Positions 3,135 through 33,403 of a stretch of 33,914 nt of DNA are shown one piece after another. The stretch covers positions 1 through 33,914 of the forward strand of contig JAQBUF010000038.1 of NCBI GenBank assembly GCA_027623995.1, in the 5' to 3' direction. Numbering within the stretch: position 1 is the stretch's first letter; each line of letters starts with the position of its first letter. Source of the stretch: Nitrospirota bacterium. Its GTDB lineage: Bacteria; Nitrospirota; Nitrospiria; Nitrospirales; UBA8639. Made by a program: the position numbers and the translations under genes. Below the pieces are notes generated by a model. The model saw nothing but the letters and a program-made list of their open reading frames with translations, was not told where the DNA came from and did no database searches.

Positions 3135-3223
3135 ACTTTACGACTTTTCCCCACCCCACCTGGTAAAAAAACTCTCGCCGATAGCGAGTAGGATCTTTTT
3201 CATTTACAAACAACCAAGAGTTA

Positions 3224-5580: not shown

Positions 5581-5630
5581 AGGCTCTCACATCAAGGGTA
5601 ACCCCAGCTATTGCCCCCAAGAAATACTTA

Positions 5631-5655
5631 CGTGACTCTCTAGAATAGAGTCACG
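5631..5655. terminator. Stem-loop between convergent genes
   Basis: A perfect nine-base stem (CGTGACTCT with AGAGTCACG) and a seven-base loop lie between the convergent WD40 and response-regulator genes, five bases after the regulator stop codon. Neither side has a real T run, so it is either a weak terminator or an mRNA 3'-end stabiliser shared by both transcripts. Confidence 0.5.
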
Positions 5656-5659
5656 GGAC

Positions 5660-7126
5660 TCAGGCTGACGTGTCCGATTCATCTGGTTCGTCAGCGGAAG
5701 TAATTCCATAGCGTTTACACTTCTCCCAGAGAGCTTTCCTCGATAACCCAAGTGCCTTTGAAGCAATCGTTCGGCTCCAATCCGTACGATTCAACACGCC
5801 TAATATATATTCACGCTCGAATTCCTCTCTGGCTTTGGCTAAAGTTTCCCCTGTGGAAATCCTCAATGGCAATGCGGCTTTTACCTGCCCATCACTCAGC
5901 CCTTCCTGGCAAAATCCGCATCCTTCCTGAACCGTGCCACCGGAAAATGGACAGCTCTGGTGCCCGCAGAGATCCCAGACCTCGATGTCTTTTCGATTTT
6001 GCGCCAAGGCCACGGCCCGCTCAATCGTATTCTCCAATTCCCGTACATTGCCCGGAAAAGAATATCGCAATAACACTTCATTGGATTGAGCGGTAAATCC
6101 TTGGATCTCACAATTGGTCCTCGAAAGACATTTCTTCAATAAATGTTCCGCCAAGACTAAAATATCTTCTTTGCGTTCACGCAAAGAAGGGAGTCTCACT
6201 TGCACCACATGAAGCCGATAATACAGATCCTCTCTGAACCGACCTTCCTCGACTTCTTTTTTTAAATCTTTCTGCGTCGCACAGACCAGCCGAACATCAC
6301 TTTCAATCGTCTCCGTCCCACCAACTCGCTCAAATTGACGCTCCTGGAGCACACGCAAGAGCTTCACCTGCACCATCGGCGAGATTTCTCCAATTTCATC
6401 CAAAAACAAGGTACCCTTATGCGCCAATTCAAATCGACCACGGCGCTGCTTTACTGCCCCAGTAAAGGAGCCTTTTTCGTGGCCGAATAATTCCGCCTCA
6501 AGAAGAGTCTCCGGCAACGCAGCGCAACTGACTTTAATGAGCGCGTATTCCCGACGCGGGCTATTCCGATGAATGGCATTCGCAACCACTTCCTTTCCTG
6601 TTCCACTTTCTCCGGTGATCAGGATGGTCGCATCAGTGGACGAGACGAGTTTAATTTTTTCGATCACCTGTCGCATGCGTTCATGTTTGCCCACGAGACC
6701 TTCGAAGCTAAATTTCCCCTCCAATTCCTGACGAAGCGCCGTATTTTCTTTCCGAAGATCCACGATTTTTGTCGCACGATCCACGGTCAATAATAACTCA
6801 TCCATTGAGAAGGGCTTCGTAATGTAATCATACGCACCCAGCTTCATGGCTTGCACAGCAGTTTCCACGGAGCCATGCGCAGTAATCACAATCACTTCTG
6901 TGTCAGGAGCACCCTCCTTGCAAGATTGCACGACCTGCAACCCGTCGCTTCCCGGCATACGCAAATCAGTAATCACGAGGTCGTACCGGTTTGCCCGTAG
7001 ACGCTCAATGCCTTCAGTTCCATTGGAAGCATCTTGCACCTCACAACCTACGGCTTTCAGTGCATCCATCATGGAAAGGCGCATAAGAGGTTCATCATCA
7101 ATGATTAGGACCGAGGGTTGACTCAT
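5660..7126 (-). CDS. NtrC-family sigma-54-dependent response regulator
   Basis: Protein of 488 residues. It has an N-terminal receiver domain (1-120, phospho-acceptor D54, conserved K104), a sigma-54 AAA+ domain (about 142-375, Walker A GESGTGKE at 172-179, Walker B FLDEIGE), and a C-terminal Fis-type helix-turn-helix (about 440-474). The sigma-54 contact loop reads GSFTGA (219-224) instead of GAFTGA. The linker between the AAA+ domain and the helix-turn-helix carries C387, C392, C403 and C406, an unusual cysteine group. The ATG at 7126 is chosen because it overlaps the kinase stop codon (ATGA) and follows AGGGAGGG. A longer frame starting at 7162 would lie inside the kinase gene. It is the cognate partner of that kinase. 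No sigma-54 promoter (GGCAC/TTGC) was found in the window, so the target lies elsewhere or is not recognisable. Confidence 0.92.
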   Translation of the reverse strand: MSQPSVLIIDDEPLMRLSMMDALKAVGCEVQDASNGTEGIERLRANRYDLVITDLRMPGSDGLQVVQSCKEGAPDTEVIVITAHGSVETAVQAMKLGAYDYITKPFSMDELLLTVDRATKIVDLRKENTALRQELEGKFSFEGLVGKHERMRQVIEKIKLVSSTDATILITGESGTGKEVVANAIHRNSPRREYALIKVSCAALPETLLEAELFGHEKGSFTGAVKQRRGRFELAHKGTLFLDEIGEISPMVQVKLLRVLQERQFERVGGTETIESDVRLVCATQKDLKKEVEEGRFREDLYYRLHVVQVRLPSLRERKEDILVLAEHLLKKCLSRTNCEIQGFTAQSNEVLLRYSFPGNVRELENTIERAVALAQNRKDIEVWDLCGHQSCPFSGGTVQEGCGFCQEGLSDGQVKAALPLRISTGETLAKAREEFEREYILGVLNRTDWSRTIASKALGLSRKALWEKCKRYGITSADEPDESDTSA

Positions 7127-10100: not shown

Positions 10101-10302
10101 TCCCCCGAGTAATCTGGGTTTCAATCTTTCTAGCTACCTCAACGGCAATGCCTTTAAAATTTGATCCACTGGTTTCGCGAAGAGCGCGACGCTCTTCAAC
10201 GTAGGTGAGAACCAAGGAGAGAAGGAGAGGGAGAAGGCCAACAAGAACCATCCCGAGAATGGTTTTACGTTGAATACTATGAGACCACTTCCACCGTTTC
10301 AT
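7123..10302 (-). CDS. Membrane histidine kinase: Cache, HAMP, three PAS, HisKA, HATPase
   Basis: Protein of 1059 residues. Membrane helices at 14-33 and about 333-354 enclose a 300-residue periplasmic sensor that looks like a double Cache domain. Next come HAMP (355-407), three PAS domains (about 423-540, 563-680 and 706-820) joined by coiled-coil linkers, HisKA with phospho-acceptor H844 in GVAHEINNP, and HATPase_c with N957, the DTGSGI box at 985 and a GEGTGLGL lid. Cache domains usually bind small extracellular molecules. PAS domains may add redox or ligand sensing, but no haem or flavin residues can be assigned by eye. It is coupled by a four-base overlap to the sigma-54 activator. The upstream region is the REP array. 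A TTGACA at 10378-10383 (minus strand) has no convincing -10 box, so the promoter is not settled. Confidence 0.93.
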   Translation of the reverse strand: MKRWKWSHSIQRKTILGMVLVGLLPLLLSLVLTYVEERRALRETSGSNFKGIAVEVARKIETQITRGINEAQQLATIPFIRSAVTGANRSYEGREPEKIKEFIEEWKARWRQRQDPDDFPMFVNRIATNYLMDWHAIRKSDYLGILVTDNQGAIVLSSLPQVQFFHGESTWWKSAFHEGVGQIYVSDLSFDPSFGTHILNVVVPIYDEQRVRAVGTVSILLRRDSLFRSISEVTAGSTGHAMLMSSDGTPLICPVLSLERHAIQPSLVSVVAQTSEGWVQAERDSHGAEDSIVGFARLRISEPLAPESFGGHHWVTYVRQDPRETYAPLNQMLIKVAMYGVIVFGVLWLMGIVVARRIVSPIQSLNDGVQRIGSGNLDHHLILRTGDEIEDLANAFNKMATNLKQSFSQLNAQMGEIRQLEERYRDLIEKSPEMIHQIDKTGQFVHVNETELEKLGYSLEEMLKKFLWDIVPSEKQPEIMDYVRQLPYQREGTLETVFVTRQGAFIDVEIHSTALVDSVSGELVYTRAFVRDVTERKVLQHQIEQYTTKLEEEVAVQTHQLSQSEKRYRVLFDRSADSILMVDANGIIVAVNERELEVLGYHESQLIQHPLTKVLVESFHETTEQTFHTVVSGEEKVLTKEIEVYDAEHRVLLVEMDLIRVEQEATIVVMVQLRDITERKLLEARLQQYNEELEDKVQSRTLEIQRTKVYLESLLENANDVIYTLDHDQCFTYVNSKVEIWGYQKEDLLGRPFLTLLTKRHRGRRLKEILNMPVKQEYEVEVMSRSGESRSVLVSVSPLRNDEDAVVGVLGIARDITDRKIMEQHIRNTERLASVGKLAAGVAHEINNPLGGLLNCLYNIRKGTLAPERQEEYLMYMEDGLRRAQKIVRQLLDFSQQREPEFTMSSINVLMDRVLVLTNHAIIEKGLQLEKELADDLPSLFVDPHMIEQVITNLLLNAIQATQAGGTITLRTKVVGGMCELEVADTGSGIAADVRPHIFDPFFTTKRTGEGTGLGLSVSLGIVERHGGQLLVESEEGHGTVFTVKLSCSATRVSTGRAS

Positions 10303-19164: not shown

Positions 19165-19203
19165 TAAACAAAAAAAGGGGGTGGGTTTACCCCACCCCCT
19201 TTG
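19165..19203 (-). terminator. Intrinsic terminator of the cytochrome operon
   Basis: A perfect 12-base stem (AAAGGGGGTGGG at 19174-19185 with its complement at 19191-19202) with a five-base loop is followed on the minus strand by a run of T. It lies about 45 bases after the stop of the dihaem NxrC-like gene and separates that operon from mobA. Confidence 0.92.
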
Positions 19204-19248: not shown

Positions 19249-21081
19249 TTAGGCTCGGCCTTTTTCCTTGCGTCGATTTGCACGACGTCCAAGCACCCAA
19301 CCTTCTAATACAATAATACCAACTCCCATGAGAATGGGATAAATATATGTGGTATTCGGAATCGTTGGTTCCATGACGAGGTAATAAAACGCCGAAACCG
19401 CCATCTTCCGTCCTACATCACCATTGTGACCATCCCAGGCAAAAAATACCATTGGGATGTATTTTCCAGCTTCTAAATAGGCCACTTCTTCGTAGTCGCC
19501 TTTAATAGGACGCTTGATGATGACTGTCCAGCGACCATTGACCCATTCGGCTTTCACCACTGATACTTCTTCTTGGAAATCAATTTCGTTGAAATCTTGA
19601 TCCCAGCCCGTTCCCTCGTATACTGCGAGAGTACCATCTGCCGTCCATTTTGTGATATCGGCGGCAAATCGTTCATCGCCCCAGAAATATCTGGGTTTCC
19701 GAGGCGCAGGTAATTCTTGCCATTTAATGGGGAATTGGAAAGCGATTCCATCATTGAATACGGCATACCCGTCTTTTTGTTTGGCTGCAAGGGATTCCGG
19801 ATGGAATTGTTCATCGGCAAACGAAGAGCCATTTGGCTGTTGTTCTTCAATACCATAGTCACCTAAATTGACTTCGGTTTTGTCCCAATCCACTTCACCT
19901 TCTTGGATACTTTTTGTACGATCATCCCATTTAAACATGAACAAAATATGGTCATTATTGTAAACGGATTGTACCCAGGCGTCATCGATCCTATTCACGA
20001 AGTTTCTGGGCTTGTGAGTGATTTGACCACCTAAGGCGAGCCAAATTCTAGGAGCTGTTTTCCATGCTTCCCCATTTTCATCAGTTGGGAGCTCTCCCTC
20101 AACGAACTTAGACGGAATCACGAAAGTTCCCTTCGGTTTATCCGTTTGGGGGTCAATTGCCAATGGCTGCGCCGTAGTAAACGTAGTAGCAATTTCATCA
20201 GTAACAACCCCATTGATGGCCGCCACTTCTCCCTGTCTTTCACATAATGAATTTACGTAGTTTGCAATATCCCAGCGATCAGCAATGCTGGTAGTATCGG
20301 CAAACGATGGCATTGGAGTCCCGTTAATACCGGTGGAAAATGTACGAAAAATATTCTTCACATTGTAAGGATCTTGCCGGCTGCCTCGGAAATTCCAGCA
20401 TTTATGCCAATCTGCAGGTTGAATGGAGAATCCCCAGTCATCCTTCAGATTAAACGCGTTGCCATCCCCTCGTCCTTCTTGCCCATGACATTCCACACAC
20501 TTTTTTTCTTGGACAAGCTCCGCTCCATGTTTAATGGATTCAGGGGTATTTGGCGTTGGTTGGAGTTTATCCAATTCTAAAACAAAAAAATCTTCGAATT
20601 CAGTATCTTGCCAGTCACGATCCTTAACTAATTGGGTGCTTATAAAAGCCAAAACATCTTTCCGTTGGTCCTCAGTAAGAATACCTTCCCAGGATGGCAT
20701 AGCTGAACCTGGCAAACCATGCGTCACTGTTTGGAGAAGATCAACATTAACTAACGGTAATTGTCCACTAGCGGTATGACGAATTTTAAATGTTCCGGAA
20801 ACAAAGTTTCTAGGGCGCGGCCAAAGACGAGCAGCCCCTGGTCCATCCCCAGCTCCTTCGACTCCATGACACCACACGCATTTGGTGAAATAGACTCGCT
20901 TTCCAGATTCTATCTGTTCTGCACTTGGCACTGGAGGAGCAGTTTGCTTCACAAACCCCTCGGGTGGTCCATCTTGCCCCCAACTGGATATTGGGAGACC
21001 GACCCCTAGCAGTAGACTTATTCCTACCGTCAGAGCGAAACGACTTGATGTGCTCGCTGTGAATCTCATGTTCCTGTTCAT
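19249..21081 (-). CDS. Dihaem cytochrome c fused to an NxrC-like haem b domain, membrane-anchored
   Basis: Protein of 610 residues. It has a signal peptide (about 1-35), two class I cytochrome c domains with haem sites C68-x-x-C71-H72 and C195-x-x-C198-H199, an ethylbenzene-dehydrogenase-type haem-binding domain (about 315-570, ending MVFFAWDGHNGD), and a C-terminal membrane helix (about 577-598) followed by a basic tail. It is predicted to sit on the outer face of the inner membrane and could pass electrons between a periplasmic NxrC-like enzyme and the membrane cytochromes encoded just upstream. The ATG at 21081 is chosen because AGAGGA lies six bases before it. The frame stays open for 34 more codons without a good start. 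It is the last gene of the bd-like oxidase operon. Confidence 0.85.
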   Translation of the reverse strand: MNRNMRFTASTSSRFALTVGISLLLGVGLPISSWGQDGPPEGFVKQTAPPVPSAEQIESGKRVYFTKCVWCHGVEGAGDGPGAARLWPRPRNFVSGTFKIRHTASGQLPLVNVDLLQTVTHGLPGSAMPSWEGILTEDQRKDVLAFISTQLVKDRDWQDTEFEDFFVLELDKLQPTPNTPESIKHGAELVQEKKCVECHGQEGRGDGNAFNLKDDWGFSIQPADWHKCWNFRGSRQDPYNVKNIFRTFSTGINGTPMPSFADTTSIADRWDIANYVNSLCERQGEVAAINGVVTDEIATTFTTAQPLAIDPQTDKPKGTFVIPSKFVEGELPTDENGEAWKTAPRIWLALGGQITHKPRNFVNRIDDAWVQSVYNNDHILFMFKWDDRTKSIQEGEVDWDKTEVNLGDYGIEEQQPNGSSFADEQFHPESLAAKQKDGYAVFNDGIAFQFPIKWQELPAPRKPRYFWGDERFAADITKWTADGTLAVYEGTGWDQDFNEIDFQEEVSVVKAEWVNGRWTVIIKRPIKGDYEEVAYLEAGKYIPMVFFAWDGHNGDVGRKMAVSAFYYLVMEPTIPNTTYIYPILMGVGIIVLEGWVLGRRANRRKEKGRA

Positions 21082-21139
21082 TGTTTTCCTCTTTATATTG
21101 CCAGTCATCAAATGATCGGTTAACGCTATTTCAATCCGG

Positions 21140-22105
21140 TTAGTCCCACGTACGAGGATAGTATCCTGTGTGCCAATACTCAAACATCACAACTTTCCAG
21201 ATTTCATCGACCGTAAGGTGCTGCTCCCATGGTGGCATCACTGAGGCCCAGGGGAAACCTTCTCCTGGCAACCCGATTCCACCTTTTGAAACACGCCAGA
21301 AAACAAAGGTCTCTTGTAACTGCGCAATCGTACCGGCATCTGTGAAATTAGCCGGGATGGGGTTAAACGCATAGGCCCAGAGTCCTCGACCATTCAAGTT
21401 GTCACCGTGGCAGAAGTGGCAATTTTGATAAAAGATCTCACCACCTTCACGCACATACTTTGTGTAGCCTTCAGCATTGGGATCCCATGGATTAAAATTG
21501 GGATCATTCACATCTTTCATCAGGCGCCCCATGGACTGCTCCACAATACGTTCGTTACTGAACGCCTGATCGTATTTCCCTTCTTTATTTACGCGGAAGG
21601 GATTTGCAGATGTTTGAAGGACAAAGGTTTTCCCATGAACTTTGGTTGTGGCAGGTGGTGCCGGATGCACAGTCCGTAATTCAATGGGCTCTTCAAAGCT
21701 TGGGAGGAATGATTTAAACGCGAACCCACCCAAGCCAAGGGGTATGAGGATGAGCGCCACGACACGAATAGCTTTGTGGAACCCAGAAATCCCATCCATC
21801 ACATTAAAAATAGGGCGTTTAAATTCTTCCCAGGCCCCTTGTGAACCAGAGACCCACATGAATAGCCCACAAGCAGATACCGTCCCATAAATGGCTCGAA
21901 CACTAAACGGAATGGGCGGATAAATCCGATACGTTAAATAGGTGACGATAAACGCCCAGATTCCGATGGCTGCCCAGAATGAAGAAATTCCCATTCCCGC
22001 ACGCTTCAGAGTCCAATTCACTAAACAAAAAATTAACACTGAAAGAGCCAATTCAGAAATCATCTGCATTGGCATGTAGCCTTCAACTAACTTTAGCCAG
22101 GTCAT
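21140..22105 (-). CDS. Membrane-anchored monohaem cytochrome c
   Basis: Protein of 321 residues. Four membrane helices (about 15-33, 41-61, 70-88, 110-131) precede a periplasmic domain with a single class I cytochrome c site, C229-x-x-C232-H233. A downstream MPPWEQHLT segment can supply the methionine ligand. An AGGAG lies nine bases before the ATG. The four-helix part does not match any quinol-oxidising subunit I recognise. It lies between two other cytochrome genes in the bd-like oxidase operon and is most likely a subunit of the same complex, relaying electrons on the periplasmic side. Confidence 0.82.
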   Translation of the reverse strand: MTWLKLVEGYMPMQMISELALSVLIFCLVNWTLKRAGMGISSFWAAIGIWAFIVTYLTYRIYPPIPFSVRAIYGTVSACGLFMWVSGSQGAWEEFKRPIFNVMDGISGFHKAIRVVALILIPLGLGGFAFKSFLPSFEEPIELRTVHPAPPATTKVHGKTFVLQTSANPFRVNKEGKYDQAFSNERIVEQSMGRLMKDVNDPNFNPWDPNAEGYTKYVREGGEIFYQNCHFCHGDNLNGRGLWAYAFNPIPANFTDAGTIAQLQETFVFWRVSKGGIGLPGEGFPWASVMPPWEQHLTVDEIWKVVMFEYWHTGYYPRTWD

Positions 22106-22149
22106 CTTGATAAACTCCTGTTTTAATTTTCAGAGCTTACGAATACGTT

Positions 22150-23481
22150 TCAATTAAAATCTTCAATTGGAGGAGGATCTTGACCCTCCTGTAAACGTGA
22201 TAAATAGTTCACAATTTTATTCACTGCTCCTGCACTAAGGGTTTTGCCGAAATCTTTTGGCATTTGGTTATCAGGATAATCAGTCACCACATAAGCACTC
22301 GGACTTAGAATTGATTCCGTGATGTACTCACGTGTGGATTTTGCCTTACCCTTGTAACCTGCGTCCTTAATTCGTTTTGGAGCATTACTCCCTTCCATTA
22401 ACAAGGGACCCACTTTTCCAACGGCGTCTTTAATGCCAGGAATAGTATGACAAGCGGGGCATCCAGCGGCCATAAAGAGATCCGTAATGGGTTCTTCCCC
22501 AGTTGCCAACACTCCACCTGCTGCCTTATCTCCACCTTCACTAGCCTTTGGACGATCGGCTTCAGGAATAAACTTTTCGTATGATGCATTTATGTCCTCG
22601 TATGTTGGAGCTTCTTTTCCTTCTCTCACATACATCCAAGTATCAACCGCCGCCATTTCACCAATTGACAATGAAATCGGTGGCTTATGAATTCTTGGCA
22701 TCGGACTTTCCGTATCATTAGATCCCTTCACACCAAATCCTGGCACCACAAAACAATTTGGGCAAGAATGGGACTCAGCAATATATTCCTGACCTGTTGT
22801 GGCAGTTCCAGACCCAGCAAACGCCTCTTTTTGGACTGTATCCCGAGATGCGGGATCATTCATATGGTACTTTTCGTGCTTCAATCGTTCTTCCGCTCTA
22901 GCCGGAACATCCCAAAGATTTGGGGCTCGTTCACTTAGGAAACCCTGATTGAACCCATGACAAAGAGGACATTGCCCCTTTCCAATGGCGCCCTGAACCT
23001 TACTTTGACCAATGCCGCCGAAGATTATTTTTTCACCTTCATCACCCAACTGTTGGCCTGACATACTTTGAAAATCAAGTTTGACAACTGGGGGAGGAAA
23101 CCCCCCTTCCACCTGTGGCAACCAGTTTCCATACCCAGACAAAGCAGCAGCCACAAAAAACATAAATCCACCGATTTTCATTAACGCACTAATATTCGTG
23201 AAATACACCCCCATGAGGAATGTAAGACTCGTAATTAGCACCAATGAAACTGGCAACTTTCCATCATTAGTTCCAAAGTTATCCTTATAGTTAACGATGG
23301 CAACCAACAGCATGACTGAAGCAACGACTCCAATCAAAATATTGAATGTCATATTCTTTTTTACTTCAGGGTCTTTTTCCTTTGCATACCTATACAAGGA
23401 AACCCCCACGACCAAGGCTAAAAACGGCCAACCAAATGCAAGTGCATCTGTTAATAATTCAACCACCTTGACACCCTCCAT
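22150..23481 (-). CDS. Membrane-anchored dihaem cytochrome c with a degenerate third site
   Basis: Protein of 443 residues. Four membrane helices (about 10-30, 46-63, 78-97, 101-118) are followed by a large periplasmic part with haem sites C171-x-x-C174-H175 and C341-x-x-C344-H345. A third CxxC at C240/C243 is followed by phenylalanine instead of histidine, so it looks like a lost or altered haem site. The last domain has the MPKDFGKTLS methionine-ligand region. A glycine/alanine-rich linker (about 312-330) separates the domains. The ATG at 23481 is preferred over the TTG just before it, with GAGGG nine bases upstream. It lies next to the bd-like oxidase gene and is probably an electron-entry subunit of that complex. 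Confidence 0.83.
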   Translation of the reverse strand: MEGVKVVELLTDALAFGWPFLALVVGVSLYRYAKEKDPEVKKNMTFNILIGVVASVMLLVAIVNYKDNFGTNDGKLPVSLVLITSLTFLMGVYFTNISALMKIGGFMFFVAAALSGYGNWLPQVEGGFPPPVVKLDFQSMSGQQLGDEGEKIIFGGIGQSKVQGAIGKGQCPLCHGFNQGFLSERAPNLWDVPARAEERLKHEKYHMNDPASRDTVQKEAFAGSGTATTGQEYIAESHSCPNCFVVPGFGVKGSNDTESPMPRIHKPPISLSIGEMAAVDTWMYVREGKEAPTYEDINASYEKFIPEADRPKASEGGDKAAGGVLATGEEPITDLFMAAGCPACHTIPGIKDAVGKVGPLLMEGSNAPKRIKDAGYKGKAKSTREYITESILSPSAYVVTDYPDNQMPKDFGKTLSAGAVNKIVNYLSRLQEGQDPPPIEDFN

Positions 23482-23563
23482 CAATGTTAGCCCTCTCTTC
23501 TTTAGAGAAGGCCAACTTTTTTGAATCTACTTTTTCGTTAATATATCTGTCTCTTTTTCCAAC

Positions 23564-25555
23564 TTAACTTCCACCGGCAGGCTGCGCAGAAGGAATCGCC
23601 TGCACTGGCTCTTTTACCGCTACAGGAGCCTTCTTCATACCTAAGGTTCCAAGCCAGAAGACAAACATAATTGAAATCCAGAAAAATAACACATTAAACG
23701 AAATGACATTGGCTGCGAAACCAATGGTATGAGTGTAAGCCCAAGGAGAATTGTCTCGCATAATTTCGTTCACATGCCAGAACAACCTCACGGAAGATCG
23801 AATGTATCCCATCAGGCCCATCATCCATGTGAAGGCTGTTGCCAACATAATGAGAGCATATTGAGAACGAGGAGCGATCTTTCCATATTGAATAGGACCA
23901 ATTTCTTTCGCCCCCTTCAACATCATAAGATTGATTGTTGTTCCTATAAACAGACAGGACAGCGTTCCTGCGACTTGCGGAATCGATAATCCAATTCGGA
24001 CGTTAGCTGGGATAAAATACCCGTAACACGCCACCCAGATATTATTGACGTGCGCCACGACAAAGAATGTTATCAGGAATATATTCCCAAAACTCGACCA
24101 ACTCACCGCTGGCATCTTATTTCCTCTTTGATACCAAATGAAACTTGCGATTGTCGTCATAATAATCGCATTAATTCCACCATTTTTGGCCGACATCACA
24201 CCATAGTTACCCAGCACAGGATGCTGCTGACCGCCCATGGCTTTTAATTCCGCTGGAGTCATCACGATTGTATGAGGAGTGATAAATACCAGGAGCCCTA
24301 CGACAAGTATAAACACGAAGTACTTGATATATTTTTGGAACCTTTCACCTCCACTCATTCGCCCTAGCGCCTGCCAGAGGTAGTAGTTAGTGGTGAGGAA
24401 CAGGATTCCAATCATTGTGGCTTGAATAATAAACAACCAAGCCAACAATCCACCCATCAAGGTAATACCCATCTGTTGTCGATATGCATACACTTCGCGC
24501 ATTAACCAATACCCAGCAAATGGGAGAGGGATTAAGAATGCAACCCCAAGTGACATGGCGATATAACCCATCCAATCATAATGGGCCCGCTCTTCATCTG
24601 TTTTCGCAGATAAAAACCTATAAGCCGCATATGCAGCCACAACACCACCACCAAAAGCCATATTACCAAGAATCCTATGCACATTAAGAGGATTCCAGAG
24701 TGCCGTATGAAGCACGTGCCAGATATTGCCAAGGTAACGACCTTGTTCATCCACACCTGCGGGGGACATCATAAAAGCAATCCAGGAATTGGCCAAGAAC
24801 ATCAACACCGTACCAATCACGTTCAAGACCACGCACATGCTGAGATGGATCCACTTCATGACCCCCTCTCGCATCTTGTCCCACCCATAATAGTAGATAT
24901 ATAAAACTCCGCTCTCCGCCACAAACATCAATGCATAGATATGCATCACCGGGCGGAAGATACTCGACAGATACCCAAAAAACGAAGGATACAACGTCAG
25001 GAAGGTGAAAATTAAAATCCCGCCAAGAATAGCGGTAAGCGAGTAGGCCGTCAGGCTTATTTTAATAAAGTCATAAGCAAGCTGGTCATATTTTTTCGCC
25101 ATCGCCTTGTCTTTTGAAACCATCCCCGCAAATTCCACACACATGCAAAAAATAGGAACGGCCAACACAAAGCTGCCATAATAGAGGTGCTGCTGGTTCG
25201 CTACCCAAAGAAGGACACGGCTTTCGAAATTGTACCGTGGATAAAATTCTGAAGTATCCGCAGTCTTAGGAGCAGGCGCACCAACGACAGGGCCCTCTGT
25301 TTTGTAATACACATCACGGCCGACCTCGACCTTTTCGCCCTCGACACCCTCACCCGAAGCTGCTGCTGCTGCTGCCGCCGCCTTTTGAGCCGCCAACACT
25401 TCAGGAGGAGGACCACCAGCTGATCCACCACCACCACCAGCCAATGCCGCCGGGAGTGCTGCAAAAATTGGGAGCACCAACATCGCCCCCATTGCAAATA
25501 AACCTGCGACCGCCAGGAATTTCTTCCTAGCTTGTCCATCATTGAGGCGACCCAT
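23564..25555 (-). CDS. Cytochrome bd-like oxidase subunit I-type protein
   Basis: Polytopic protein of 663 residues with about 14 hydrophobic segments. The first half resembles CydA: NQQHLYYG (120-127) matches the helix bearing the haem b595 histidine, and HLSM at 237 lies in a later CydA-like helix. Both fit haem ligation. The quinol-binding GRQPW region of true bd oxidases is absent. Extra conserved histidines occur at 280, 283, 293, 428 and 445, and the C-terminal half has no CydA counterpart. A signal-like N-terminus is followed by a Gly/Ala-rich tract (39-70) that is missing from its paralogue at 29127-30998. The ATG at 25555 has AAGGAGG seven bases upstream. Nitrospira is known to encode such bd-like proteins, some proposed as terminal oxidases. 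Adjacent cytochromes c suggest that electrons come from cytochrome, not quinol. Confidence 0.85.
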   Translation of the reverse strand: MGRLNDGQARKKFLAVAGLFAMGAMLVLPIFAALPAALAGGGGGSAGGPPPEVLAAQKAAAAAAAASGEGVEGEKVEVGRDVYYKTEGPVVGAPAPKTADTSEFYPRYNFESRVLLWVANQQHLYYGSFVLAVPIFCMCVEFAGMVSKDKAMAKKYDQLAYDFIKISLTAYSLTAILGGILIFTFLTLYPSFFGYLSSIFRPVMHIYALMFVAESGVLYIYYYGWDKMREGVMKWIHLSMCVVLNVIGTVLMFLANSWIAFMMSPAGVDEQGRYLGNIWHVLHTALWNPLNVHRILGNMAFGGGVVAAYAAYRFLSAKTDEERAHYDWMGYIAMSLGVAFLIPLPFAGYWLMREVYAYRQQMGITLMGGLLAWLFIIQATMIGILFLTTNYYLWQALGRMSGGERFQKYIKYFVFILVVGLLVFITPHTIVMTPAELKAMGGQQHPVLGNYGVMSAKNGGINAIIMTTIASFIWYQRGNKMPAVSWSSFGNIFLITFFVVAHVNNIWVACYGYFIPANVRIGLSIPQVAGTLSCLFIGTTINLMMLKGAKEIGPIQYGKIAPRSQYALIMLATAFTWMMGLMGYIRSSVRLFWHVNEIMRDNSPWAYTHTIGFAANVISFNVLFFWISIMFVFWLGTLGMKKAPVAVKEPVQAIPSAQPAGGS

Positions 25556-25645
25556 GACCAACCTCCTTTTTCCTTTGAACAATTTCAAAGAGACTAAATC
25601 TTTGTGAAGTTTTTCCATTATATTCAATTCAATTCACCCAATCAC

Positions 25646-25762
25646 TTAGCGGAGAATATAGAAGTAATCTAGACCTTGCTGGTCCATCAAGAACCAATCA
25701 AGGAATTGAAAATACCCCACCGAGATCACCAACGAAATAATCACATACACAATCTTTTGCAT
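25646..25762 (-). CDS. 38-residue single-helix membrane protein beside the bd-like oxidase
   Basis: Small frame starting MQKIVYVIISLVISVGYF and ending YFYILR, with one membrane helix (about 3-23). AAGGAGGAG lies a few bases before the ATG, one of the best ribosome sites in the window, so it is almost surely translated. It is co-directional with the bd-like oxidase gene. Bacterial bd oxidases carry tiny one-helix subunits (CydX, CydY, CydH) of similar size. No sequence match to these is evident, so a role as a small oxidase subunit is inferred from size, topology and place only. Confidence 0.72.
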   Translation of the reverse strand: MQKIVYVIISLVISVGYFQFLDWFLMDQQGLDYFYILR

Positions 25763-25798
25763 GCCAACTCCTCCTTTATAGACCAATCAGTTCCAAAA

Positions 25799-25912
25799 TC
25801 AACAAGGGCATTGAATACCGGCAAACCAATAGAAGAACCAAAAACTCACCGCGCAGGTGACATAAAAAATTGCCTTACCTACCTTCGTTTCAACGGAATC
25901 AGTTTTCGCCAT
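25799..25912 (-). CDS. 37-residue single-helix membrane protein at the head of the oxidase operon
   Basis: Small frame starting MAKTDSVETKVGKAIFYVTC, with one aromatic-rich membrane helix (about 13-32, including FWFFYWF) and a short tail ending CPC. The ribosome site is weaker (GGGG seven bases before the ATG). It is the first frame of the minus-strand operon, followed after 36 bases by the second small frame and then the bd-like oxidase. The size and charge pattern (short polar N-terminus, single helix) fit a structural subunit of a respiratory complex. The helix cysteine and the CPC tail are notable. No named family is recognised. Confidence 0.65.
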   Translation of the reverse strand: MAKTDSVETKVGKAIFYVTCAVSFWFFYWFAGIQCPC

Positions 25913-26019: not shown

Positions 26020-26124
26020 ATGCGAAATAACGCAAAATTGTTCGACATTATAGTGCTGGCAGGAATGGTTGTCAATATTCTTTTGGCTGTCTTCCTGATT
26101 CTCTACTATTTCGATTTCCTCTAA
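26020..26124 (+). CDS. 34-residue single-helix membrane protein, divergent from the oxidase operon
   Basis: Small plus-strand frame starting MRNNAKLFDIIVLAGMVVN and ending YYFDFL, almost entirely one membrane helix (about 8-30). GAGG lies eight bases before the ATG, and a sigma-70-type promoter lies upstream. It stops eight bases short of the convergent stop of the FGE-like gene. It resembles the other two tiny proteins in size and topology and may belong to the same complex. Being alone on the plus strand makes it less certain. Confidence 0.55.
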   Translation: MRNNAKLFDIIVLAGMVVNILLAVFLILYYFDFL

Positions 26125-26131: not shown

Positions 26132-27046
26132 CTAAGCCTTAGGGTTTTTGTTGGTCGGAGCATCAGGGTTTTTATCTAATTTAGACGTCGCGCACCTGAA
26201 TCCAATGGTTTCATCGCGGAAGTCTGGAACCATAAAACTCCTTGCCGTAATTCTCAAATCAATTCCATGGCTGGTATACCCTGCTCCGCGAAGAGTCTTA
26301 TATCCTCCGCGATCCGCAGAATTTTCCTCACGAGACTCATTTGAATCCACCGCTTGCTCTTCATACCAGTTCTCCACCCATTCCATCATATTTCCAAATC
26401 CATCATGGACCCCAAAGGGGCTTCGGTCCAATGGAAAAGAGCCAACAGGTGCTGTGGCCTCGTATCCATCCTCCGGACCTCCCAAATTGGCCTTAAAAAT
26501 TCTCGGAGAGCTACCCCATGGCCACAACCGACCATCGATACCTCTCATGGCTTTTTCCCACTCCGCTTCTGTCGGTAATCGGAACCCTCTCCATCGACAA
26601 TAGGCACCCGCATCATGCCAGGACACATAGGCCACGGGCTGGTTAGGGCTACGAAGCTGAGCAAGCCGCTTGGCATAACGCGATGGGGGACCAGGTTGAC
26701 GATGCCCGGCCTTCTCCACAAAATCGAAATAGTGATGATTTGTCACTTCATGTCGAGTGATCCAATACCCATCTAGCTTCACAATCCGCTCCGGGCGCTC
26801 ATTAAACCCACCCTGCTTCGTCCCTTGGATAAATTCTCCAGGAGGAATAAACACCATTTCTTCCTTGGTAATCTTTTGGGGAGAACCCGAAGAGGACAAC
26901 GCTTGAGGATTTTGAAGGGGTTCCGCAAGATTTGCGAGATCCGGGTCTGGCGGTGGAGGTTTCATTCCTCGCAAGATTCCAGAAACCGGCATGCCCACCA
27001 TAAACAAAATGACGGCGGCAAGAATTAGTTTTAATCGAATGTCCAT
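26132..27046 (-). CDS. Membrane-anchored FGE/SUMF1-like protein without catalytic cysteines (copy 2)
   Basis: Protein of 304 residues. An N-terminal helix (about 5-24) anchors a periplasmic FGE-sulfatase-type domain (about 60-290) with the usual landmarks MVFIPPGEF, VSWHDAGAYCRWRGFRLPTEAEWE, LWPWG, FGVHDGFGNMMEWV, TLRGAG and IGFRCA. True formylglycine-generating enzymes have two copper-binding cysteines in the segment between the RGG and GFRC motifs. Here that segment (YTSHGIDLRITARS) has none, so sulfatase activation is unlikely. Such domains often serve as binding or structural modules. It is the last gene of the second oxidase operon and lies 28 bases after a related gene. A role in assembly or as an outer-face subunit is inferred. 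Confidence 0.8.
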   Translation of the reverse strand: MDIRLKLILAAVILFMVGMPVSGILRGMKPPPPDPDLANLAEPLQNPQALSSSGSPQKITKEEMVFIPPGEFIQGTKQGGFNERPERIVKLDGYWITRHEVTNHHYFDFVEKAGHRQPGPPSRYAKRLAQLRSPNQPVAYVSWHDAGAYCRWRGFRLPTEAEWEKAMRGIDGRLWPWGSSPRIFKANLGGPEDGYEATAPVGSFPLDRSPFGVHDGFGNMMEWVENWYEEQAVDSNESREENSADRGGYKTLRGAGYTSHGIDLRITARSFMVPDFRDETIGFRCATSKLDKNPDAPTNKNPKA

Positions 27047-27074: not shown

Positions 27075-28004
27075 TTAAGGCGACTTACTGTTTGATGCTG
27101 GCTCATAGCCCTCGGCATCAAGAGCACACCGGAAACCCATCGTGGCATCAGCCCTCCACATTTTGGCGGAAAAACGCTTCGTCACTCGCGCATTCAATTT
27201 TGAGTCCCGCCACGTACCACCTCTGATCACTTTAAACTCTGAATCATCTGGCCCAGGCGGATCTCGGAAAGGCGTATTCTGATAATATTTTGGATCATAG
27301 GAATCAGCCACCCATTCTGCGACATTTCCCGTCATATCGTACACCCCATAGGGACTGCGCCCAACCTCATATGATCCCACCGGCGAAAGATACATGAAAC
27401 CATCATCATCCCCATCAACATTTGAATAGGCATAGCTAAACTCATTGCCCCAAGGATAGAGACGTCGGCCTTCGCCACGTGCAGCTTTCTCCCATTCAGC
27501 CTCTGTGGGCAACCGTTTTCCTGCCCACTGGCAATAGGCAAAAGCGTCATGCCATCCGACACCGACCACAGGGAAATCTGGATCAAGAAGTTTAGAAATA
27601 TCTTCTTCAAAAACTGGGACCTTCGGCTTTTCTCGCTTGACCATGTTCACAAAACGATTATATTCAGCCTGAGTCACTTCCTTAAGATCGATAAAGAAGG
27701 CCTTAATATACACCGGATGCGCTGGAGCCTCATCTGGGTCCCCCTGATCATGGCCCATGGTAAAAGGCCCTTCAGGGATTTCAACCATTTCCCGGCCCTC
27801 ATTGCCCATCACAGTCCGGTACATCGAAAAATCTTGGACCTTCACCGGCTCGATTAACCGTGGCTTGGCTGTTTGGGATACTGCGACCAAGCGTTCCCGC
27901 TCAGCCTTCCCTTTATATGTTTCATAGATCAGCAAACCCATCATCAGAATGAATGAACCAAAGACAAAGATAATTGAACCAATCAAGACACCACGATTTT
28001 CCAT
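27075..28004 (-). CDS. Membrane-anchored FGE/SUMF1-like protein without catalytic cysteines (copy 1)
   Basis: Protein of 309 residues with an N-terminal membrane helix (about 6-28) and a periplasmic FGE-sulfatase-type domain containing MVEIPEGPFTMG, VGWHDAFAYCQWAGKRLPTEAEWE, LYPWGNEF, YGVYDMTGNVAEWV, VIRGGTW and MGFRCALD. The segment that holds the two copper cysteines in true formylglycine-generating enzymes (here RDSKLNARVTKRFS) contains none. It and the next gene are tandem copies that have diverged widely. Both are anchored facing the periplasm and follow the second bd-like oxidase gene, which suggests a pair of accessory subunits or assembly factors. The enzymatic role is unknown. Confidence 0.82.
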   Translation of the reverse strand: MENRGVLIGSIIFVFGSFILMMGLLIYETYKGKAERERLVAVSQTAKPRLIEPVKVQDFSMYRTVMGNEGREMVEIPEGPFTMGHDQGDPDEAPAHPVYIKAFFIDLKEVTQAEYNRFVNMVKREKPKVPVFEEDISKLLDPDFPVVGVGWHDAFAYCQWAGKRLPTEAEWEKAARGEGRRLYPWGNEFSYAYSNVDGDDDGFMYLSPVGSYEVGRSPYGVYDMTGNVAEWVADSYDPKYYQNTPFRDPPGPDDSEFKVIRGGTWRDSKLNARVTKRFSAKMWRADATMGFRCALDAEGYEPASNSKSP

Positions 28005-28487: not shown

Positions 28488-29130
28488 AATCCACTTCTAC
28501 CCCTGGTCCACTCTGCAAGGAGATTCCCCAAGCCTTCGCAGCAGGTTCGTGTTTATGAATATCTATAAAATCTTTATAGGCATTCACTTCCTCTTGAATC
28601 CACTCGCCAAACTGTTCATTTCCAGTTCGCACCACGACCTCGGCTGCCCCGAACATTCCACCATCCTTCACATCACCTTTTTTTCGAGTTCCACTCCAGA
28701 CATACTTCGTGGAAACGGGAATAAACATATAATCCAAATCTAAGTTCGCAAACACCGACGCCATAAAATCTGCGTTTTCAGGAGCCGAGATCACCCGCCA
28801 CCGCCATCGTAAAATAGGATGGGTTTTGGGGTCCCAATTGATATGCTTGGTATACACACGTTGGTTTGCGCCCTTGCCTTTCAAAAAAGCCATATTGTCT
28901 TCTTTATGAAGGGAATAGGCTTCTTGGGCTGTCACCTTACTACGCGACCCCTCCCAACCTTGGGGAAAGCCATCGGCATCAGGGGTCTGGAAATCTTCCA
29001 AGACGACACCTGACGAATGACTATCGTCGGCATACACCAACGATCCCCACGGTATTCCGATAATGACAATGGCGGCCAACATCAGCCCAATCGACTTCTT
29101 TATGATACGCCCAAACAATTGACTCTTCAC
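28459..29130 (-). CDS. Exported DUF3047-family protein
   Basis: Protein of 223 residues with a signal peptide (hydrophobic about 14-34, ending VYADD). The mature domain matches DUF3047 in pattern: [16 protein letters not shown] near the start, LRWRWRV, a YVWSG segment, [19 protein letters not shown] and GISLQSG. The fold is probably a jelly-roll-like beta sandwich. The function of the family is not known, and members are often found near cytochrome or export genes. The GTG start overlaps the bd-like oxidase stop (GTGA), showing translational coupling and so a likely role with that oxidase. Confidence 0.75.
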
Positions 29131-30998
29131 GCCGATTCCCCTCTTGAAAAAGTCCGCACCAATGAAATTTCTTGTGGCTCAGCCGAAGGTTCCTCAGTCA
29201 GCACGACCTGCCGATCCTTCGTCGCAAGCCAAAACATCGCAAACACCGAAGCCCAGAAGAGCAACATATTAATGGTGACCATTTTCGCGGCAAAGGTGAT
29301 TTCTGGAGTAAAGGCCCAGGGAGAAAGATCTGCCATAAGATCCTTCACATGCCAGCCCAACCGTCCTGCGGATCGAATATAGCCCATGAGTCCCATCACC
29401 CAGGTAAACATCGCCGCGACAACGAATAAGGAAACCATGCCACGCACAGAAATGTTTCCCCATTGAACAGGCCCACGAAGTTTCGACCCACGAAGCATCA
29501 CCTGATTCAACACCAATCCAAGAATTAATACCGTGGCAGTGGTGGCTCCTTGCGGAACGGAGAGTCCGACGCGAACGTGAGCCGGAATATAAAATCCATA
29601 AATCGCCACCCACACAATATTCACAATACCGATAACAAACAACATCCCCAATGCAATATTTCCCGCTGTAGCCCAAGGGACCGTAATAATTCTATTAGCT
29701 CTTCGATAGAGTAAATAACTCAGCCCTGTTAAACAAATCATGACATTAATCGCGCCATTCTTTGCAGACATGACCCCAAATTGACCAATCACCGGATGTT
29801 GAGCCGCACCCATGGCTTTCATTTCACTCGGTGACATGGCGATGGTATGTGGAGTGAACCACACAAGGAAAGCCATCATCAGACCACCGACAATGAACTT
29901 AAAGTAGGGATCAAATCGGTCGCCGCCCCTGATGCGCCCTAACGATTGCCAAATATAATAATTGATTCCCAAAAACAGCGCGCCAACGGTAATAGCCTGT
30001 ACCACAAAGAGCCACGTGAGCAACCCGCCCATCATCGTCACACCCATTTCCTGACGAAACTCGAATACGGCTCGCATCAGCCAATACCCGGCAAAGGGCA
30101 TAGGGAGTAACGCACAAACCATGACGACGATAAAGACATAGCCCACCCAATCATAATAGGCACGCTCTGTAACCGACCGCGTTCGCAAAAACCGATAGGC
30201 TGCATAGGCCACAACAACAGCGCCTCCCGACATGATATCCGCGAGGAACCGATGCGCATTCAATGGATTCCATAAGGGAGAATGCAGGAGATGCCAGATA
30301 TTCCCAAGGAATCGGCCACTCTCATCAACGCCCGATGGTGCCATCATGAATGACGCCCAGGCATTCGCCATCAGCAGCAAAAGGAGCCCCATCGCGTTGG
30401 CCAAGACCCCAATCGACATATGAAACCACTTCCGTCCCCCCTGCGCCATCTTGTCCCAACTATAGTAATACAAAACCAGCAAGAACGACTCACCCAGAAA
30501 CACCACCGCATATATCGGCATCAGACTCTTAAACGTGGTGCCCATATAATTCATGAATCCTGAATACATCGTAACAAACGCGATGAGCATCAGACTTCCC
30601 AAGAGGGCCGTGACGGAAAGTGACAACACACCGACGCGCAAAATATCTCGCGCCAAGTCATCATAGCGTTTGGTGGCTTCAGGATCACGACGAGAACGCG
30701 CAAAGAACTCTAGCAAGAGGACAAACAACGGCAACGCCAACACAAACCCGCCAAAATACGTATGCTGCTGCGTCACCATCCAAATCAAAATTCGGTTATC
30801 CACCATTTGCCATTGGGGATACTCGGATTTGATTTCTTTGGCAGCGATCCCCTGGGGAACCCCTTCAGTTTGGTAATAGACATCACGGGGAGGGTCGCCA
30901 TAGACCACCTCCTCTGAATACCCTACTGAAACTTGGAAAAGGACAAAGAAAAAAAAGCAGGCTGCAAGAGTGAAGGGAGAAAAGTTTCGCATCGACAT
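29127..30998 (-). CDS. Second cytochrome bd-like oxidase subunit I-type protein
   Basis: Polytopic protein of 623 residues, closely parallel to the protein encoded at 23564-25555 along its whole length. It has a signal-like N-terminus, then DVYYQTEG, TQQHTYFGG (76-84, likely haem histidine), HMSIGVLANAMG, NIWHLLHSPLWNPLNAHR, WFTPHTIAMSP, QHPVIGQFGVMSAKNG and LGWHV. All these histidines are shared by the two. The quinol-site GRQPW motif of true bd oxidases is missing here too. It lacks the Ala/Gly-rich insertion and the cysteines of the helix near residue 92. No cytochrome c gene is next to it. Instead it is grouped with DUF3047, FGE-like and DUF420 proteins. It may form a pair with the first copy or be an alternative isoform. 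Confidence 0.83.
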   Translation of the reverse strand: MSMRNFSPFTLAACFFFFVLFQVSVGYSEEVVYGDPPRDVYYQTEGVPQGIAAKEIKSEYPQWQMVDNRILIWMVTQQHTYFGGFVLALPLFVLLLEFFARSRRDPEATKRYDDLARDILRVGVLSLSVTALLGSLMLIAFVTMYSGFMNYMGTTFKSLMPIYAVVFLGESFLLVLYYYSWDKMAQGGRKWFHMSIGVLANAMGLLLLLMANAWASFMMAPSGVDESGRFLGNIWHLLHSPLWNPLNAHRFLADIMSGGAVVVAYAAYRFLRTRSVTERAYYDWVGYVFIVVMVCALLPMPFAGYWLMRAVFEFRQEMGVTMMGGLLTWLFVVQAITVGALFLGINYYIWQSLGRIRGGDRFDPYFKFIVGGLMMAFLVWFTPHTIAMSPSEMKAMGAAQHPVIGQFGVMSAKNGAINVMICLTGLSYLLYRRANRIITVPWATAGNIALGMLFVIGIVNIVWVAIYGFYIPAHVRVGLSVPQGATTATVLILGLVLNQVMLRGSKLRGPVQWGNISVRGMVSLFVVAAMFTWVMGLMGYIRSAGRLGWHVKDLMADLSPWAFTPEITFAAKMVTINMLLFWASVFAMFWLATKDRQVVLTEEPSAEPQEISLVRTFSRGESA

Positions 30999-31004: not shown

Positions 31005-32087
31005 TTATGACGTTGGTTCGGCTGGCCTGGTCGCCAGGGAAGATGATGTTGGTACTTGGCTAGGAGAAACCCAGCCCGTTTTAGCTAAGATTTCCATGAC
31101 AAACGGGCAGCGACGCAGCCCCTCAGAAATCTCTCCTTGCGTCTGCCTTTCCACGAATACTCGCGTCCCAAGAAAATAGCTATACCCAACCATTAACGCA
31201 CTCGTCATCCCAGCGAGTCCTGCAAAAAGGCCAATTTGGGTCACGCTCACATTCAACAAAAAGACCGCAAAACTCCAGAGAACTAAATAGTATGTCAGGG
31301 CAAAAGTCAAACACGGCCACACCAAAAATTGCACCCGCTCCCACCATGATTGTGACCCGATCCGTTCGGTCCAATTGCTCTCTGGAAATTGCCCTTGGAG
31401 AAAAGCGAGATGAGCCAAACTACCGGCCACCACCATGGAAATAATCGCTTGCCCTATTCCGCTCACCCCCCAGTCCCCCACAAGACTGAATAAGAGGGAA
31501 CACATGGCACCGGCCATGAGGCCACCACCACCCCATTGCAAAACATGAAGGGGATCTCGTTGCAGAAACTCTCGGAAGGGTTGACCATTGGGGAATGTCA
31601 CCATTCGAGTGCCTTCAGACTCCAATCGCATCACATGGCCAATCTCAAAGGCATCCCGCGTCACTGCCGTCGTGGGAATAATCAACGCCATCATGGCAGG
31701 GCCTTCTGGGTGAAGCAGAAAATTGTAGTCGACAAAAAGTGCGAGCATGGCCAAGACCAACAACGATAGCTGCATGCCATAGGCACAACCGATCCATCCA
31801 GCGACCCAAGCCAATCTCTTGAACGAGTCGTTTTTGAAGATAAGAGAGAAGGCCTCTTTCCTCCCCATACGATAAGCCCACAAGGCGGTGACCGTAGAAA
31901 TCGCCCCACTGAAGGCCAATAATACAAAGGGTTCTCCAAGAGGCAAAGAGTCTTTAAGCCCTCGATAGAGCAGAAAGGCTATAAACCCTGGGGCCAGCAT
32001 GACCCAGCGTTTGCGCTTGCGAACAGTAGATTCCGTCACCGCGGCGTTGAGTTGAGGAATGACTCGAAGGGCTAATCGATGGAGCAT
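31005..32087 (-). CDS. Polytopic membrane protein of unknown function
   Basis: Protein of 360 residues with about eight membrane helices (for example near 31-45, 50-70, 90-125, 180-205, 245-275, 280-305). A conserved-looking loop contains RDAFEIGHVMRLESEG, and the C-terminal cytoplasmic tail has CPFVMEILAKTG. There is no signal peptide and no haem motif. AGGGA lies near the ATG. It ends seven bases before the second bd-like oxidase gene, so the two are probably in one operon and it may be an integral subunit or assembly factor. I do not recognise the family. Confidence 0.72.
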   Translation of the reverse strand: MLHRLALRVIPQLNAAVTESTVRKRKRWVMLAPGFIAFLLYRGLKDSLPLGEPFVLLAFSGAISTVTALWAYRMGRKEAFSLIFKNDSFKRLAWVAGWIGCAYGMQLSLLVLAMLALFVDYNFLLHPEGPAMMALIIPTTAVTRDAFEIGHVMRLESEGTRMVTFPNGQPFREFLQRDPLHVLQWGGGGLMAGAMCSLLFSLVGDWGVSGIGQAIISMVVAGSLAHLAFLQGQFPESNWTERIGSQSWWERVQFLVWPCLTFALTYYLVLWSFAVFLLNVSVTQIGLFAGLAGMTSALMVGYSYFLGTRVFVERQTQGEISEGLRRCPFVMEILAKTGWVSPSQVPTSSSLATRPAEPTS

Positions 32088-32207: not shown

Positions 32208-32687
32208 CGTCTTCGCAGCCATCCCAAAATACCGAGCCTTGAGTTCTTCCATTAAAGACACAGTCACCTCCGGCAATCCACGATCCAAGGCTGTTCGCTC
32301 CAACTCCACTCTGGCCATCGCACGAACCGCTCCAGGAACCCGGGATAACCGACCTTCCGCGTCAGGATGCCAAGCCACAGTGCCCTGGTTTCTGGCCTCC
32401 GTGATCAAGCCAGTGGTAATCAGGGTAAGATGCTTTCCCCCGACGTAATCCTCAACCTCCCTGCGAACAAGTGGCTCAAGATACGGTGGGAGTCTCTCTA
32501 AACAATGCTGAGCTTCATCCGTCCACACAGGATGCTCGAATAAAGGAGAGGCTTCTTCACTGGTAGCCTCTATGCCAAACTTACAGTCACACCCAGCACA
32601 GGCAAAACGGATAAACGCCTGCCCATCATCACCTTCTTCGATTTGGCCAAGCCGGAAACCTGAACCACAAGTACAGGTCATACACAT
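32202..32687 (-). CDS. Zinc-ribbon protein with two PCP_red-type domains
   Basis: Protein of 161 residues. The N-terminus has C2, C5, C7 and C30, C33, C35, likely a metal-binding ribbon. Two helical segments (about 55-98 and 106-155) each show the W...A...L...P..VR..VE pattern of the PCP_red domain, first known from the light-independent protochlorophyllide reductase subunit and also found in non-phototrophs. The ATG at 32687 overlaps the stop of the DUF420 gene (TAATG), so translation is coupled. A longer frame from 32759 would run inside that gene. The stop codon lies in a heptamer repeat. The role is unknown. Its place suggests tetrapyrrole or metal handling for the neighbouring oxidase. 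Confidence 0.65.
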   Translation of the reverse strand: MCMTCTCGSGFRLGQIEEGDDGQAFIRFACAGCDCKFGIEATSEEASPLFEHPVWTDEAQHCLERLPPYLEPLVRREVEDYVGGKHLTLITTGLITEARNQGTVAWHPDAEGRLSRVPGAVRAMARVELERTALDRGLPEVTVSLMEELKARYFGMAAKTS

Positions 32688-33403
32688 TACCCAATTTTGC
32701 CGGGATACAAAATATACAGCATGGTATAGGTAAAGCTGCCCGTCACAAACAGCACGCAATAGATAGCCATCGTAAATCGGCCTAAGACTTTATGACGCCG
32801 TGCGCCATTGGGCCAAATGCGCTGGATGGTGATTTCAACTCCAAAGACGATTCCAAGAATAATGAGCAGGCCAAGATACACACTGAGTTTTCCCATGGAA
32901 AAACCAGAGGAAAGCCCACGACTGACAAACAATAACAGTACCGCGACCGCGACCACACCAAAAATAATGCCGACCTTTCGCCAAGTCGTTTGGAGCATGG
33001 CGTCTCTCAACTTTCGTTGTCCATCGATAAACGTTTGAGAGCGAAAGCCCAGGACCATCATATAGATAGCCATTACGAGGCCGATCACCACCAAAATTAT
33101 GTGGAAAGTCAGCACGGGAATAAATACATTGTCATACAAGGCCTGTGATCCACCAAACCCTTCTTTTCCTTCAAAGGCCAACACACCCAATTGCCGAAAT
33201 AAATAGTAGCTCGTAAAGAACGCTAACATGGCAATCATGCCACCCAGCATCAACCAATGATGAGCGGATCCTTTTCCAGTTTTGGCCTGAATCCAACCAA
33301 GGATAAACAACGCCGTAAAGAACGTCGCCATGAGCTGACTCACATCCGCCCCCATGGTCGCATGCGTCCCAGCAAAACCTGGCTCTCGTAACCATTCAGC
33401 CAT
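32687..33403 (-). CDS. DUF420-like membrane protein
   Basis: Protein of 238 residues with about six membrane helices. Several features match DUF420: SAHHWLMLGGMIAML with paired histidines, a helix with LTFHIILVVIGL, and RRHKVLGRFTMAIYCVLFVTG, where a histidine follows an arginine just before the last helix. Some family members (YozB/CtaM type) are needed to assemble haem-copper oxidases. A role in oxidase assembly or haem handling would fit its operon, but that is inference. AAGGGA lies seven bases before the ATG. It is longer than the usual 130-190 residues because of extra N-terminal and internal helices. Confidence 0.7.
   Translation of the reverse strand: MAEWLREPGFAGTHATMGADVSQLMATFFTALFILGWIQAKTGKGSAHHWLMLGGMIAMLAFFTSYYLFRQLGVLAFEGKEGFGGSQALYDNVFIPVLTFHIILVVIGLVMAIYMMVLGFRSQTFIDGQRKLRDAMLQTTWRKVGIIFGVVAVAVLLLFVSRGLSSGFSMGKLSVYLGLLIILGIVFGVEITIQRIWPNGARRHKVLGRFTMAIYCVLFVTGSFTYTMLYILYPGKIG

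Follow-up and report, generated by a model that had tools for sequence, protein, structure and literature searches.

The stretch of DNA analysed here, called the window below, is 33,914 nucleotides long and is the entire contig JAQBUF010000038.1 (C59) of assembly GCA_027623995.1 (G000; 3.13 Mb, 99.7% complete), which represents a marine nitrite-oxidising Nitrospirales bacterium whose nitrite oxidoreductase (NXR) genes nxrA and nxrB are located on another contig (C75). Its minus strand carries six consecutive co-directional genes that encode, in order of transcription, two one-helix proteins (small1 and small2), a bd-like membrane protein, two membrane cytochromes c, the first with two haems and the second with one, and a dihaem cytochrome c that continues into an NxrC-like domain (alt_NxrC_2, further referred to as alt_NxrC). 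An earlier note, made from the letters of this DNA alone, had read these genes as an operon in which periplasmic cytochromes feed a bd-like core and the NxrC-like domain serves as the docking face for NXR. We found the operon, with its c-type cytochromes next to a bd-like core devoid of a quinol site, to be strictly conserved; the docking face was not supported, as the complete operon is also kept in relatives without NxrA and NxrB.

A six-gene operon

A promoter and an intrinsic terminator enclose exactly the six genes (Table 1). Promoter scanning yielded 21 sites compared to 14.7 expected from shuffled sequences, and the site upstream of small1 is the sole match in 12 out of 12 positions; the terminator is as strong as the earlier note had it, and all open reading frames (ORFs) are present. 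The bd-like gene starts at the ATG at 25555, preceded by AAGGAGG, which makes a longer ORF with a TTG start unnecessary. For alt_NxrC, the ATG at 21081, which possesses a Shine-Dalgarno sequence and the better ribosome-binding site, is a more likely start than 21183.

Pfam and NCBIfam agree with the gene descriptions of the earlier note: the bd-like protein matches PF01654 (E 2e-19), the cytochromes contain cytochrome c domains and alt_NxrC matches PF09459 (EB_dh, E 2.4e-13), with two, one and two CxxCH motifs in the 444-amino-acid (aa) dihaem protein, the monohaem protein and alt_NxrC, respectively. Hydropathy predicts four helices in each membrane cytochrome, as claimed before. In the AlphaFold model of the monohaem cytochrome the helices lie within residues 12-133 (predicted local distance difference test score, pLDDT, near 88); outside the helices this model is poor (mean pLDDT 56.6), and a structure search with it gave no useful fold match.

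Table 1 Features of the operon and its conserved upstream neighbours
Feature	Position	Strand	Evidence or remark
Sigma-70-type promoter, TTGACA-N17-TATAAT	26047..26075	-	12/12 matches; about 135 nt upstream of small1
small1, 37 aa, one helix	25802..25912	-	ORF and conservation
small2, 38 aa, one helix	25649..25762	-	ORF and conservation
bd-like (CydA-superfamily) membrane protein, 663 aa	23564..25555	-	PF01654; ortholog of N. moscoviensis bd-like_3
Membrane dihaem cytochrome c, 444 aa	22150..23484	-	Cytochrome c domains; haem part homologous to Kuenenia Kustd1711 (PDB 7zs0)
Membrane monohaem cytochrome c, 321 aa, four-helix anchor	21140..22105	-	Cytochrome c domain, hydropathy
Dihaem cytochrome c with NxrC-like (EB_dh) domain and C-terminal membrane helix (alt_NxrC_2)	19249..21183	-	Pfam, profiles
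Intrinsic terminator, 12-bp stem and T tract	19174..19202	-	-25.4 kcal/mol, z -3.5
Membrane-anchored SUMF1/FGE-like protein, no FGE Cys pair	26132..27046	-	Conserved neighbour class-wide
Second membrane-anchored SUMF1/FGE-like protein, no FGE Cys pair	27075..28004	-	Conserved neighbour class-wide

The operon is conserved in lineages with and without NXR

We compared 96 related loci (the contig scan for relatives covered its best 80 loci, all closely related sequences) and found all six genes in 77 of them. In every one of these 77, gene order and strand are identical, which bears out the conservation that the earlier note had named as a check, and most of the incomplete loci either run off their contig or contain a tiny gene whose match misses the E-value threshold. 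Because of this constant order and the purifying selection on the tiny ORFs described below, the operon is not a chance arrangement.

Scanning 396 Nitrospirota genomes, the dihaem cytochrome was detected throughout the Nitrospirales and in 20 genomes of other Nitrospiria orders. None of these 20 genomes contains a match to NxrA at 1e-10, and their matches to NxrB are short and weak only. For 18 of these genomes, the bd-like and alt_NxrC genes share one contig; the bd-like protein is 61-68% identical in the class relatives without NxrA or NxrB, and the loci fetched from other orders display the six-gene order as well, with one tiny gene weak or missing in a few. Within the Nitrospirales, one family (f4, genomes G309 and G355) likewise possesses the module without NxrA or NxrB. 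This family is probably UBA2166, described as the sole NXR-less family of the order (PMC12342949). The co-occurrence with nxrAB expected of an NxrC-type subunit is thus absent, alt_NxrC being found without NxrA and NxrB in all of these 22 genomes, and the presence of the whole operon in NXR-less relatives argues against it being simply a docking station of NXR.

In a FastTree phylogeny of the concatenated module proteins, the NXR-bearing families form one clade (support 1.0) with f4 as its sister, while the other orders form a separate clade. As the NXR-bearing lineages are nested among NXR-less ones, the module is probably older than NXR. The simplest reading is that it was present in the class ancestor and that NXR was gained after f4 diverged; alternatively, NXR was lost in f4 and in the other orders, and either way the module persists without it. 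Vertical inheritance of the module is indicated by its surroundings: the two SUMF1/FGE-like genes lie directly upstream in nearly all loci, NXR-less members included, and argS-tgt-secD lies downstream in many loci, outside the Nitrospirales as well.

Two further observations concern individual loci. Two metagenome-assembled genomes labelled as Nitrospinota (L002 and L023) carry a locus that is 81-89% identical to the window; they probably belong to the Nitrospirales and were mislabelled or misbinned. The NXR-less genome G119 contains a second, divergent set without alt_NxrC (L097:8495-14762), which comprises a dihaem cytochrome (39%), two bd-like proteins (43-44%) and a monohaem-like cytochrome (36%).

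A CydA-like core without quinol site

The bd-like protein belongs to the CydA superfamily, as it combines PF01654 with the CydA fold and three conserved residues. Its profile matches 5doq_A (E 1.6e-9), and its AlphaFold model, of moderate quality (pLDDT 65, predicted template modelling score 0.67), superimposes on the CydA chain 6rx4_A over 344 residues spanning 106-647 (VIA Z 28.1, root-mean-square deviation 4.2 A), with Z values of 25-28 against ten CydA chains. Alignment with CydA places the counterparts of His19, Glu107 and His186 at H123, E214 and H293, which are invariant in 38 bd-like sequences, three paralogs from G000 among them. The same alignment confirms that the GRQPW motif is missing, as the earlier note had stated: the stretch aligned to GWxxxExGRQPW reads WMMGLMGYIRSSVR, with MGYIRSSVR in place of GRQPW. 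A Pfam scan of the operon proteins revealed no CydB family. Lacking GWxxxExGRQPW with its Glu445, Glu99 and a CydB encoded in the operon, the protein does not qualify as a canonical quinol oxidase (qOR), and its lost quinol site and c-type cytochrome partners correspond to the OR-N type, a match of features with only the genome's own paralogs in the tree.

Next after CydA, the closest structural matches of the bd-like model (residues 106-654) are the ActC/ActF subunits of alternative complex III (9ilt_F, 6btm_C, 6f0k_C and 6lod_C; Z 18-19.5). These may hint at a shared two-bundle architecture of the modelled protein, on which we do not rely because helical bundles easily reach high Z values.

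Five c haems and an NxrC-like domain that probably lacks haem b of the NXR-C kind

Alignments revealed an invariant methionine, as candidate sixth ligand, for each of the five c haems: M262 and M408 in the 444-aa protein (29/29 sequences), M290 in the 321-aa protein (30/30) and M162 and M291 in alt_NxrC (23/23). The dihaem part of alt_NxrC is homologous to the solved cytochrome 6h5l_B (E 7e-42), which we take to be a Kuenenia protein. The haem part of the 444-aa protein shares homology with Kustd1711 (profile E 2e-14). For the His/Met haems of Kustd1711, potentials close to +350 mV were published (PMC11791136), which fits donors at the level of cytochrome c.

The NxrC-like domain aligns to NxrC with an hhalign probability of 99.6% and is a genuine EB_dh/type II gamma domain. 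In Kuenenia NXR-C, haem b is held by Met155 and Lys305 (PMC8387239). The column of Met155 is occupied by Trp, Phe or His in all 23 alt_NxrC homologs and the position of Lys305 by Met in the window protein, with a Lys one residue earlier; the true NxrC encoded in the window (246-1199) retains both ligands. Having lost the Met and displaced the Lys by one, the NxrC-like domain of alt_NxrC is unlikely to bind haem b the way NXR-C does.

These results bear on the proposal that the NxrC-like domain binds periplasmic NXR and passes the electrons from nitrite via its dihaem part to the membrane complex. The genuine fold would suit such a role, G000 possesses nxrAB, the window itself harbours NxrC, TorD and a two-component system, and the dihaem protein Kustd1711 is encoded in the nxr cluster of anammox bacteria; the tail of small1, moreover, follows the presence of NXR (see below). 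Set against the complete operon in 22 genomes without NXR, the altered haem b ligands and an expression of alt_nxrC_2 that is 4-fold below that of nxrC_2 (PMC6606698), these points leave docking an improbable explanation. NXR-specific docking is thus not supported; the complex may have been put to use in nitrite oxidation at a later time.

Two conserved one-helix proteins

Comparison of the related loci disclosed a core WFFYWF in small1 and MDxQGLDYFY in small2. The ratios of non-synonymous to synonymous polymorphism (pN/pS) are 0.20 for small1 (86 distinct sequences) and 0.32 for small2 (90 distinct sequences), indicating purifying selection and hence two real coding genes; together with the conserved gene order this rules out that the tiny ORFs are spurious. 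We also considered whether they represent CydX and rejected this, as the motif YxxWxxGx15[E/D] (PMC4325964) is absent from both window proteins by inspection.

The C-terminus of small1 (25802-25819), predicted to be periplasmic, reads CPC in 79 out of 79 loci of the NXR lineage and in none of the nine NXR-less loci, all of which have a His-containing tail instead. Either tail could bind metal. The correlation with NXR amounts to one evolutionary change and proves nothing alone.

Proposed function of the complex

We tentatively favour, with slightly less than even confidence, that the six genes specify a respiratory complex ancestral to the Nitrospiria, a bd-type terminal oxidase fed by cytochrome c, which did not evolve as an anchor of NXR. 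The gene order suggests that the six products form one complex, in which an OR-N-like membrane core of the bd superfamily without quinol site would be joined by two one-helix accessory subunits, and the three membrane-anchored cytochromes c with their five high-potential haems would constitute a periplasm-facing electron entry unit. Electrons from a soluble periplasmic cytochrome c would pass the five c haems before reaching the b haems in the core, where O2 would be reduced, and nitrite oxidisers would later have fed the electrons from nitrite into this pre-existing complex. The fuller statement, namely a bd-type terminal oxidase with five c haems, Tyr for Glu99 and two new one-helix subunits that is ancestral to the Nitrospiria and into which nitrite oxidation was plugged later, with the CPC tail marking the NXR lineage, is more tentative still.

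Genome G129 (96% complete) contains complex III cytochrome b and no COX1, and its module protein is its only PF01654 protein; G271 is alike except for a sub-threshold COX1 fragment. If these organisms breathe O2 by means of bd-family or haem-copper oxidases, the task can only fall to this complex; no search for alternative oxidases was made. Several points weigh against an oxidase. Glu99, an axial ligand at the bd active site (PMC6853902), is replaced by Tyr207 in 38 out of 38 sequences, in all four bd-like paralogs of G000, and the position of Glu445 aligns to an invariant Leu581, which precludes the E. coli mode of binding for the active-site haems. Anaerobic anammox bacteria share the same four-gene order (kustd1709-kustd1712), and other bd-like proteins of the Nitrospirales, OR-N1 and OR-N2, were proposed as terminal oxidase (PMC10839748, PMC12342949).

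The latter two points are equally in line with the main rival, in which the complex acts uphill as a cytochrome c:quinone oxidoreductase similar to alternative complex III, transferring electrons from high-potential cytochromes to the quinone pool at the expense of the proton-motive force; the bd-like core would then contain a quinone site that has escaped recognition. Such reverse transport was put forward before (PMC3578206, PMC6606698), and ActC/ActF are the second-best structural neighbours of the bd-like model. That likeness is discounted for the reason given above, no known quinone motif is left in the core and complex III cytochrome b is already present in 27 out of 27 genomes checked, which makes reverse transport rather unlikely in our view. 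A redox side branch, removing O2, nitric oxide (NO) or reactive oxygen species (ROS) or having another role without energy conservation, appears very unlikely: canonical bd oxidases are capable of these reactions according to the literature and the module spans lineages of differing metabolism, but its transcripts rank among the 40 highest in N. moscoviensis (PMC6606698) and it is retained class-wide, for which a core energy role fits better. We thus favour a cytochrome c-fed O2 reductase over cytochrome c:quinone reverse transport, both being well below certainty.

Neighbouring genes in the window

The SUMF1/FGE-like gene next to the operon is probably a separate transcript, and a structural role of both SUMF1/FGE-like proteins in the same complex is possible. 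About 3.5 kb upstream of the operon, the Nitrospirales families f1-f3 carry a second bd-like gene of the bd-like_4 type (29127-30998 on the minus strand in the window, product 50% identical), accompanied by genes for a membrane protein (31005-32087) and a DUF420 protein (32687-33403); among the loci fetched from f4 and from other orders, none showed it beside the module. At the other end of the window, positions 246-10302 encode NxrC, a TorD-like chaperone, a ferredoxin-like protein, a WD40 protein, a sigma-54 regulator and a large PAS histidine kinase. This region likely is the published NXR-diagnostic cluster of the NITMOv2_3614-3631 type, a conserved cluster among 140 genes diagnostic for nitrite oxidation (PMC12342949); the six-gene module is not mentioned in the available part of that account.

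Relation to known systems and implications

A membrane complex of c-type cytochromes with a bd-like core lacking the quinol site was already proposed for Nitrospira, Nitrospina and anammox bacteria (PMC6606698, PMC3578206, PMC10839748). The bd-like_3/alt_NxrC_2 cluster of N. moscoviensis (L074; Mundinger et al. 2019, PMC6606698) consists of orthologous genes in the same order, a bd-like protein, two c-type cytochromes and a dihaem alt_NxrC; it was published, in the available text, as four genes without mention of the tiny ones and as linked to nitrite, whereas we also found it without NXR. In Kuenenia stuttgartiensis, kustd1709-kustd1712 (compared via the published annotation, PMC6423088) encode dihaem, monohaem and dihaem cytochromes and a CydA-like protein in the same order. 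The Kuenenia genes adjoin nxr, and Kustd1711 is described as exported with a signal sequence, whereas its Nitrospirales counterpart possesses a four-helix anchor. The operon core is therefore not new.

OR-N CydAA' reductases (Murali et al. 2021, via PMC10839748 and PMC12342949) have in common a CydA-like N-terminal half, the lack of a quinol site and cytochrome c as proposed donor; the OR-N1/OR-N2 pair proposed as terminal oxidase of the Nitrospirales is, however, encoded elsewhere, in G000 probably on contig C35. With canonical cytochrome bd (CydA/CydB/CydX) the complex would share the CydA fold, the three conserved residues and tiny one-helix partners, and it would differ by the lack of GRQPW, Glu99 and a CydB gene in the operon, by its three cytochrome c partners and by tiny proteins without CydX motif.

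Already published are thus the four large genes, the missing quinol residues, cytochrome c as donor and the ideas of an NXR anchor and of reverse transport. New relative to the accounts cited is that the two tiny genes and the FGE-like neighbours are conserved, that lineages lacking NXR keep the full operon and the NXR-bearing ones form a clade nested among them, that alt_NxrC has lost a ligand of haem b, that every c haem has a Met candidate and that the CPC tail of small1 correlates with NXR; some of these points may stand in other papers or supplements.

These findings bear on how electrons from nitrite enter the respiratory chain of Nitrospira and on the role of its bd-like proteins. The cluster was taken as linked to nitrite until now because it is common to anammox bacteria, Nitrospina and Nitrospira. 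Its complete occurrence in relatives that lack NXR uncouples the module from NXR and points to a high-potential respiratory module of general use, which is amenable to study where NXR is absent. New subunit candidates are the two conserved tiny proteins, and the difference between the CPC and His tails of small1 offers a testable link to nitrite oxidation.

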